Part shown: positions 5,926 to 8,923 of the stretch, one piece after another | Numbering within the stretch: position 1 is the stretch's first letter | Layout of the letters: each line of letters opens with the position of its first letter | Source: Bryoerythrophyllum caledonicum | Lineage: Eukaryota; Streptophyta; Bryopsida; Pottiales; Pottiaceae | NCBI GenBank assembly: GCA_963971425.1 | Contig: OZ020517.1 | Location: forward strand, 31,654,734-31,718,733 | Direction of reading: 5' to 3' | Length of the DNA: 64,000 bases | Program-made: the position numbers and the translations under genes | Notes under the pieces: generated by a model | What the model was told of the DNA's origin: nothing | The model's input: only the letters and a program-made list of their open reading frames with translations | Database searches by the model: none

Positions 5926-8923
5926 ATGAGGGGACAAGAATTACTTGTCACTCTTTTACTGCACGCGGTCACTTCCGCAGTGGCAACTTTGCCGGATTAT
6001 CCCTGCGCTGAAAACCTCACAACGCGCGGAGAAAACCATCACTTCGACCCCTGCGTGAACACGAGCGCGTTTCTCTTACTCCATACATGCCAGGATTTTG
6101 TGGACAACAAGACAGCGCTGCCCTCTGCCGAATGCTGTGCCAGCATCCATGACGTCTGGCTCCAGTTTCCAGCTTGCTTTTGCAGGGTCACCTTCTTCGA
6201 GCACGGCTTTGGAGGAGAGTCTCAGCCAAGGTTTCGTGCACGTCCTTTGCAGTGCAACCTTACCGCTGACTTGTGCAACCTCTGCCCGGCATATTTATAC
6301 CCTCATCGATCTGGTAATATTTATTTGGCAGCTTTTCTTAACTTTGGCTGTTTAGAAAGCCCTCTCAAATCATGAATTTGTAGTGTATTTTTAATCTTGA
6401 ACTGAATATCTATTTATTTGTAAACACCAGGATAATTCTTCAGATCTACTAGGACTTGCGTGGATAAGCTCGATTGTGCGATTTCTAGATAAGTCGTGTT
6501 TGAGAATGAGGTAGGTTCTGTAAGGAGAAAGATGTGGTGGATGTGATTTTGTGTGCAGGAGTCCGTTCACATACGAAGAGAGCTGCGGCGCTGGTCACCA
6601 TCATCATAGGCGTCGCACTCGCCCTCGTTGTGTGTCTGTTGTTGATGCGCTGGAGAAAGAAAATTTTCTCTAAGAACTTCCAGAATGACATGAAGTACAT
6701 CGAGGATTACAACAGTTAATAACATCGCCTCTTAACGCCTTTTTCCAGCTTTATTTCACATCTATATTTTGAGGCAGAAGTTGCTTATGGATCTTGAAAA
6801 TACAGAGCTATTAGACCTGAAAAATAAATGTGTTGGTGCAGGCATTAAAAGCATTGAAGGAAAGCCTACGATCTTTCCGTACAGCGTTTTGAAGGCTGCC
6901 ACAAATAATTTTGATCCCAACACTAAACTCGGACAGGGTGGATTTGGCTCCGTCTTCAAGGTACTATTGGCCAGGCTCATTTTCTAAGGTCAAGGCTCTG
7001 AAATGAATGCATAGCTCATTACTACATCCAATTTTATCATTATATTGAAGAGTAAAATTGGAGAGTTTGTGTCGCACACAGTTAATATCCTTTGAGTACA
7101 GAAAAATTGAATGAATCCATCAAGTGGATTCTTTTCTCTCAGTTGAAGAGAGTTCAACCAAAGAAGTTAAGGCTTATAATCATATGAGCCCATTGGCTTG
7201 GTGATTTATTAGGGAGTTCTTCCGGATGGGATGGAGGTGGCGGTCAAGCAGCTGTCAGCCAAGTCGCAACAAGGAAACGATGAGTTTCTCAATGAAGTTA
7301 CCCTCATCACAAGTGTCCAACACCGCAACCTTGTTCAGGTACAGTGCACAACTTGTTTCATTCGTGAAACATGAAATTGTACCCTTTTAATACTTGTTCT
7401 AATGAAGACTTTTTTGCTGCTTTCTTGCCCAAGGCTGGTACTTTACTATCATTACCTATGAGGTTTGCCTTCAATGGGGAGTGCATGTGATTGTTGCGTG
7501 AGGGCTTGTGACGTCTTGTTCGCGTTGTCAATCTTTTAAGTGTATTTCTGAATCCTTTTCTTTCCAGCTTCGAGGGTGCTGCCTGAAAGGCGAGGAGCGG
7601 CTTCTGGTTTATGAGTACCTTCAAAACAGAAGCCTCTATCAAGCCTTGTTCAGTGCGTAGAAATTCTCAACCTGCTTTCCTGGGTGGCAACACACACATA
7701 ACTCTATTATGTAGCATAATCTACTTGCCTACCTTATCTAAAGGTAGCAGGTGCCTAACGAGCTCAATGATCCTATGAAGATATTCATTACTTTGGCAGT
7801 TTTATGGTTGTCAACATGAGAGTTTGAGGTTCACTTGTCATGTTTCGAAAGGGCTTCCAAACTCCCAAAGTTACAATAGAATGAGTAATTCCATGGCCAT
7901 GTTTACTCGTTGCAGATGCACCGGTGAGATACGTATTGGACTGGAGAACAAGGATGAAGATTCTGGAAGGAACAGCACGAGGTCTGGCCTACTTGCACGA
8001 AGGGTGTCACACACGGATCGTGCACCGCGACATCAAAGCGAGCAACATCCTTCTGGACAAAGACCTCAATCCCAAAATTGCAGACTTTGGCCTGGCTCGG
8101 ATCTTCTCCGAAAACGACACCCACGTGAGCACACGCGTTGCTGGAACTGCGTAGGTTCATCCTGACCTCCTAGTCATGTGCAAGTTTCAAGTGTAGATCA
8201 TGTGAATTTTAATGGATCCTTGTACCTGTAGTGGTTACTTGGCACCGGAGTATGCCATGCGGGGACAGTTGACGGAGAAAGCAGACGTCTTCAGCTTCGG
8301 TATTGTCGCGTTGGAGCTCGTCAGTGGCCGCCCCAACCTTAACTTCCATCTCCAATCCTACGCTACATATGTGCTTGACTGGGTAGGCCTGATCTTTCAC
8401 CACTACACAGAATATTAATCAGCTATTTCCTCAAGGTCATAACTTTTTATGTTGACTGAATGATATTTATTATACTACTCACGTAGAAAGATTCATGTAG
8501 ATCATGTAGTACTATAATGTAAAATTCATTTCTACATGATCTACATGGATTTTTATTTTTTTTTCTTGTTTTGTCCTGTGTCACGATTATCTTTTGGAAT
8601 TTCAGGCGTGGCAATTGTACGAAGAGACGAAGCTAATCCACCTGCTGGATCCGACGCTCGCCTGGTGCACCGACAGCATCGAGGAGTCGATCCGCGTGAC
8701 GGAGATGGCGCTCCTGTGCACGCACTCACGCGCGACGTTGCGCCCCACCATGACGAGTGTGGTGTCCATATTGACAGGAGGGAGCCAAGTGGTGGTACCC
8801 AAACTCGCCAGGTTTGATGTCCGTGACTACGATGACTTGGGAACGTTCAAGGGCTTGCCGTGCTCCGCTTCTTCGGAGTGCTGCACTGATAACAGCAATG
8901 TGAGCACCCTTGAGCCTAGATAG
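5926..8923 (+). CDS. Receptor-like kinase with an LTP-like eight-cysteine ectodomain
   Basis: Eight exons (5926-6313, 6559-6694, 6774-6960, 7213-7338, 7568-7652, 7916-8150, 8232-8382, 8606-8923) give about 541 residues. Residues 1-20 are a signal peptide. The ectodomain has Cys43-x11-Cys55-x14-Cys70Cys71-x12-Cys84-x-Cys86-x23-Cys110-x6-Cys117, the spacing of the nsLTP/2S-albumin eight-cysteine motif, plus extra Cys27 and Cys120. One TM helix follows ([19 protein letters not shown], about 140-160) with a basic stop-transfer. The kinase is complete: GQGGFG loop, VAVK Lys249, HRD Asp346, DFG Asp364, GYLAPEYA and the C-lobe. It is an RD kinase of the plant RLK/Pelle class, close to the DUF26/LRR-VIII type by sequence feel. 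The exon 2-3 junction is the weakest: I use a GTACAT donor, because reading on meets a stop at 6717. Ligand unknown; a lipid or hydrophobic ligand is conjecture from the LTP fold. Confidence 0.82.
8494..8547. repeat. Short hairpin in the last receptor-kinase intron
   Basis: CATGTAGATCATGTAG (8494-8509) is followed by its exact reverse complement CTACATGATCTACATG (8532-8547) with a 22-base loop. It lies in an AT-rich intron and may be a remnant of a small foldback element. Confidence 0.7.

Follow-up and report, generated by a model that had tools for sequence, protein, structure and literature searches.

The window, a stretch of 64,000 nucleotides of the Bryoerythrophyllum caledonicum genome (437 Mb in 894 contigs; the window is C4:31654734-31718733), carries near its start a gene that is read as a receptor-like kinase (RLK) with an ectodomain of the lipid-transfer-protein (LTP) type, a transmembrane (TM) helix, and a kinase. 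Its parts, in window positions and with the basis of each assignment in parentheses, are as follows.

5926..8923, plus strand: LTP-ectodomain receptor-like kinase, complete coding region, 8 exons and 525 aa (open spliced frame)
5926..6313, plus strand: exon 1, signal peptide and LTP module, ending in phase 1 (spliced frame)
5926..5985, plus strand: predicted signal peptide, residues 1-20, cleavage assumed after TSAVA (translation judged by eye)
6004..6285, plus strand: 10-cysteine LTP module extending from Cys27 to Cys120 and bearing four sequons for N-glycosylation (LTP_2 match, cysteine and sequon positions)
6559..6714, plus strand: exon 2, TM helix (residues 138-159, approximately) followed by a basic stop-transfer segment (spliced frame, hydropathy)
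6842..6960, plus strand: exon 3, juxtamembrane stretch and glycine loop (phase-1 start in a column common to the paralogues on contigs C9 and C11)
7213..7338, plus strand: exon 4, kinase N-lobe with the AVKQL lysine (spliced frame)
7568..7652, plus strand: exon 5, kinase N-lobe; the preceding intron is missing in C9 and C11 (spliced frame, intron comparison)
7916..8150, plus strand: exon 6, HRD and DFG motifs of an RD kinase (93 % identity to the C9 paralogue, query residues 5-78)
8232..8382, plus strand: exon 7, APE motif (spliced frame)
8606..8923, plus strand: exon 8, kinase end and C-terminal tail with the stop codon (62 % identity to C9; next is C11 with 50 %)

The spliced frame, running from exon 5926-6313 to exon 8606-8923, has GT-AG borders at all seven introns and no internal stop codon. 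As originally predicted, this one frame encodes, in order, a signal-peptide-like start (recognized by eye), a cysteine-rich module with ten cysteines, a single TM helix, and an RD kinase. No 19-residue Kyte-Doolittle window in the start exceeds 1.6, whereas the starts of the C9 and C11 genes do exceed this value. The hydrophobic segment of exon 2 reaches a Kyte-Doolittle peak of 3.16 (windows starting at residues 135-145) and is followed by RWRKK. The four sequons of exon 1, at residues 30, 45, 61, and 111, would fit an extracellular part, as expected. With respect to the exon map, the predicted junction 6313/6559 was upheld, while 6694/6774 was set aside in favour of 6714/6842 (intron 6715-6841). 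The frame is open either way; 6714/6842 is the most likely junction because the phase-1 intron then shares an alignment column with both paralogues. The exon 2 donor at 6714 is weak (an exon-final A followed by GTTAAT). On exons 3-8, the Pkinase profile gives E 1.2e-46 with a provisional exon join, and the HRD, DFG, and APE motifs are intact. In a search with the kinase, 54 sequences match at E<=1e-40, the best being SYMRK (1.2e-70) and BAK1 (4.9e-70), and IRAK4 is found at about 1e-48.

The ten cysteines of exon 1 are located at residues 27, 43, 55, 70, 71, 84, 86, 110, 117, and 120, which corresponds to a spacing of 15-11-14-0-12-1-23-6-2. The Pfam profile LTP_2 matches the window ectodomain with E 4.1e-6 (27.2 bits vs a cut-off of 22). 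The older Tryp_alpha_amyl profile gives E 0.0035, which is under its cut-off on exon 1 and, for the trimmed module, just over it (21.9 vs 21.7). In an alignment of the window module with eight others from the same genome (n = 9), LTP_2 matches all nine modules and Tryp_alpha_amyl eight of them at E<=1. Each of the nine has exactly ten cysteines, i.e., the eight-cysteine motif (8CM) C-C-CC-CXC-C-C plus two extra; the two extra cysteines noted earlier for the window module are thus a trait common to 9/9 aligned modules. Moreover, X14 separates the third cysteine from the CC pair in eight modules, and CC-X12-CXC is present in all. When the cysteines were kept fixed and the other residues randomised, none of the nine shuffled modules (0/9) matched LTP_2, and hence the match is not due to cysteine spacing alone. 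Searching the PDB with the nine-module profile gave 13 sequences at E<=10, all of them named lipid-transfer proteins or DIR1, with weak E values (0.0024 to 0.2). When the whole genome was scanned with LTP_2, 53 places were listed, the three C9 modules among them. The module exons of the window gene, C11, and C8 are missing among these 53, which suggests that they are divergent LTP_2 members with a moderate profile match. An AlphaFold2 model of the window ectodomain, made from the single sequence with no alignment, has a mean pLDDT of 39.3 and is too poor for judging the fold.

SPARK (PF19160) was considered as an alternative identity for the ectodomain and was ruled out. SPARK-domain RLKs (ARK type) also combine a cysteine-rich ectodomain with a kinase, but the domain is a different one: the SPARK profile matches five other places in the genome and neither the window ectodomain nor the aligned modules. 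In the Pfam search, no SPARK, DUF26, or malectin match is listed for the window ectodomain at E<=10, a range in which the HMMER filters discard most weak matches, and exon 1 has no LRR or malectin match. The DUF26 profile did not match any of the contigs of the genome, although such a search does not prove absence. Profile searches (LTP_2, Tryp_alpha_amyl, and SPARK), paralogues, and introns agree with the original view of the ectodomain as LTP-like and not SPARK.

The gene has two paralogues of the same build. The C9 paralogue (L012, minus strand; 657 aa as read) has two tandem LTP modules, a TM helix, and a kinase, while the C11 paralogue (L052 plus L024; 539 aa as read) has one module, a TM helix, and a kinase. 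Six introns of equal phase are common to the three genes. Five of these are in the identical alignment column, and the positions of the sixth, between the LTP module and the TM helix, lie no more than five columns apart in a region of poorer alignment. The intron 7339-7567 is extra in the window gene and missing in C9 and C11, which have a seven-exon layout. That C9 and C11 repeat both the order of parts and the intron phases is the strongest evidence that the exons in the window belong to a single gene. Comparing C4 (the window gene) with C9, 234/283 residues of the kinase core are identical with dN 0.117 and dS 1.31, which indicates that the kinase is under purifying selection. The ectodomains of the same two genes share 45/100 residues, and as judged from this alignment the ectodomain is evolving faster than the kinase. 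Collectively, we regard the gene as very probably a genuine LTP-module receptor kinase. Normally, an LTP-type module is a free or lipid-anchored carrier, and by the classical criterion an nsLTP is small and either stands alone or is GPI-anchored, whereas here the module is fused to a TM helix and a kinase.

Five further genes are readable as a ten-cysteine LTP module, a TM exon, and a short tail, with no kinase. One is near the C9 kinase gene and the others are on C15, C12, C8, and C1. When all three phases were scored for the intron between the LTP module and the TM exon, the donor nearest to the consensus was the phase-1 donor in each of the five. The phase-1 donors match 3 to 5 of 5 consensus positions and those in other phases at most 2, while the frame alone would permit another phase in all five genes. 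A kinase search at E<=1e-3 in the 9.5-kb loci L015-L021 gave no match. Together, the trio (the window, C9, and C11 genes) and these five genes, with one of each kind adjoining on C9, lead to the conclusion that LTP-TM genes occur in the genome both joined to a kinase and in kinase-less form. The kinase-less gene on C9 (L012 about 9037-8320, minus strand, C9:9395 kb) lies ~3.4 kb upstream of the double-module LTP kinase, and it is possible that the two neighbours constitute a receptor/partner pair. Elsewhere in the genome, two near-identical LTP-TM-like copies are located 68 kb apart (C6:13102642-13102812 and C6:13170583-13170753), apparently with the start of the module missing. A 418-aa open frame at C9:20154005-20155018 has three LTP_2 modules, and two-module frames are present on C10 and C719.

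For exons 6 and 8 of the window kinase, the best matches in the genome are C9 and C11 (for exon 6, the best among 150 of 581 candidates). Kinase trees were built from an alignment of three kinase exons, in which 26 distinct loci of 30 were kept and four identical or gappy rows excluded. With all 26 sequences, FastTree placed the trio in one group (support 0.979), whereas in IQ-TREE the long-branch sequence L047 was grouped with the trio (support 94) and the trio alone was not recovered. After removal of L047 (25 sequences), or of the long branches L047, L045, and L036 (23 sequences), IQ-TREE gave the trio a support of 100 in both cases. The trio is therefore grouped in three of the four trees. 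Its nearest kinase varies: C15 and C6 with 25 sequences, and C2 with 23. By eye, LRR-like exons lie upstream of the C15 and C6 kinases, and these kinase relatives presumably belong to the subfamily named LRR-VIII. A strong LTP_2 match by the C15 kinase turned out to be a downstream proline-rich LTP frame (L056) and no ectodomain. Near the C2 kinase, no convincing LTP module was found within 7.5 kb, the best match covering 9 residues at E 0.75. At L054 (C2:22851501-22855000), where the kinase is close to the LTP kinases, exons that by eye resemble a jacalin-type lectin lie upstream, beside a kinase fragment.

These relationships bear on how the gene arose. Most likely, a kinase derived from LRR-RLKs acquired a pair of LTP and TM exons, a scenario that fits the LRR-like exons read by eye at the C15 and C6 relatives and the kinase-less LTP-TM genes. 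A comparable history has been described for the cysteine-rich receptor-like kinases (CRKs) of vascular plants, whose ectodomain is DUF26. According to PMC6368629, CRKs likely arose when a secreted DUF26 protein became fused to the TM helix and kinase of LRR_clade_3 RLKs, their genes usually have seven exons (one for the ectodomain, one for the TM helix, and five for the kinase), and they are reported from vascular plants and not from bryophytes. By analogy, the origin of the LTP kinases would most likely parallel the published origin of the CRKs. Both combine a small disulfide-rich secreted module and a TM exon with an LRR-RLK-derived kinase; moreover, C9 and C11 have the seven-exon layout given for CRKs in PMC6368629, and C9 also has a double module. 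The difference is in the ectodomain, which in the window gene matches LTP_2 and has no DUF26/Stress-antifung match. With LRR-VIII or LRR_clade_3 RLKs the gene shares the kinase family and the kinase exon pattern, as well as the C15 and C6 outgroups that look LRR-like by eye, but it has an LTP module in place of the LRR/malectin part.

A third point of comparison is the GPI-anchored LTPs (LTPG), in which the module is likewise held at the cell surface. Disregarding the two extra cysteines, the spacing in the window module is C-X11-C-X14-CC-X12-CXC-X23-C-X9-C. This is similar to C-X9-C-X14-CC-X12-CXC-X25-C-X8-C in L021 and to L056, which has X23 for X25; both were assigned to the GPI type by eye. 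Unlike LTPG proteins, the window gene has a TM helix in place of the GPI anchor, the two extra cysteines, and a kinase. In the open PMC literature, which was the scope of the search and lies apart from subscription papers and protein domain databases, no description of an LTP-ectodomain kinase was found among the papers listed. This applies to the accessible parts of PMC10834447, PMC9579050, PMC10916322, PMC10868138, PMC10152718, PMC12985213, PMC12988820, PMC6368629, PMC3310802, PMC9832785, and PMC5874595. The LTP-type ectodomain is probably a new variant among plant RLKs.

What the LTP module does in such a receptor is a separate matter, and sensing of lipids or other hydrophobic ligands through the module is the function that we somewhat favour on sequence grounds. 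The product would be a single-pass plasma-membrane RLK with one 10-cysteine LTP-type module as its extracellular part. This module would take the disulfide-locked four-helix LTP fold and hold a hydrophobic ligand in its cavity; a fatty acid, a cutin monomer, a sterol, and an oxylipin are candidates. An additional disulfide, perhaps between Cys27 and Cys117, may form in this fold. The ligand might be captured directly or be delivered by an LTP that is itself secreted or GPI-anchored. Once bound, it would change how the receptor pairs with a second LTP receptor or a kinase-less LTP-TM protein, and the altered pairing would in turn switch on the kinase by trans-phosphorylation. However, LTP homology alone is no proof of lipid binding, since 8CM proteins include protease inhibitors and storage proteins (PF00234 description). 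This diversity also lends some weight to a competing, though rather unlikely, function in which the module is a protein-interaction domain whose surface recognizes a lipid-loaded LTP, a protease, or a peptide, and any lipid inside would serve at most to fill out the structure. The fast divergence of the ectodomain, with fewer than half of its residues identical between C4 and C9, is what would be expected of a recognition surface, and the tandem arrangement of the two C9 modules also speaks for it. Against protein interaction, LTP_2 outscores Tryp_alpha_amyl on the window module, and the cysteine spacing resembles that of the GPI-type LTPs L021 and L056.

The other alternatives concern the gene itself. 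The locus could consist of two adjoining genes, a short LTP-TM gene made of exons 1-2 with a stop at 6717-6719 and a separate kinase gene. Reading through exon 2 does meet a stop at once past the donor, which is weak, and the genome has five LTP-TM genes of this kind; yet in C9 and C11 the LTP, TM, and kinase parts follow one another just as here and the intron phases agree, and no signal-sequence start was seen by eye for the kinase exons, so that two genes are very improbable. It is possible, on the other hand, that intron retention generates a short isoform alongside the full-length product. The same weak donor could be taken as a sign of a decaying gene without function, a reading that is hardly credible given the intact motifs and frame and the purifying selection on the kinase. 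It is just as hard to see the ectodomain as a diverged member of an RLK class already described (SPARK, DUF26/CRK, or LRR-VIII with malectin). The kinase is indeed akin to those of LRR-type RLKs, and the two outgroup kinases have ectodomains that look LRR-like, but the Pfam results given above place none of these domains in the window ectodomain, while LTP_2 recognizes every one of the nine modules.

Extending the favoured lipid-sensing function to the family, we consider, more tentatively, a model in which the LTP kinases, whether single- or double-module, act in pairs with the kinase-less LTP-TM proteins, bind lipids at the cell surface in a pocket of their own, and signal directly. In this model they arose by the exon-joining route that also produced the CRKs, but independently of them. 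Such a receptor bears on the question of how lipids of the apoplast, monomers of the cuticle, and volatiles are perceived at the plant membrane, and a kinase with its own LTP ectodomain would allow a direct test of lipid perception using one purified domain. It may also represent a second RLK class derived from a small secreted cysteine module and an LRR-type kinase.

The remainder of the window includes parts of other genes. A Tfb5 (TFIIH) exon lies at 9440-9700 on the minus strand, and exons for the N-terminal and AAA parts of ATAD3 lie at 59350-61429 on the plus strand. Two pieces of an SNF2-type gene, presumably BTAF1-like, at 52919-53499 and 45197-45422 are repeated at 62110-62912 with 97.9 % and 95.6 % identity and in changed order. 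The pieces at 62 kb look like a recent, rearranged partial copy.
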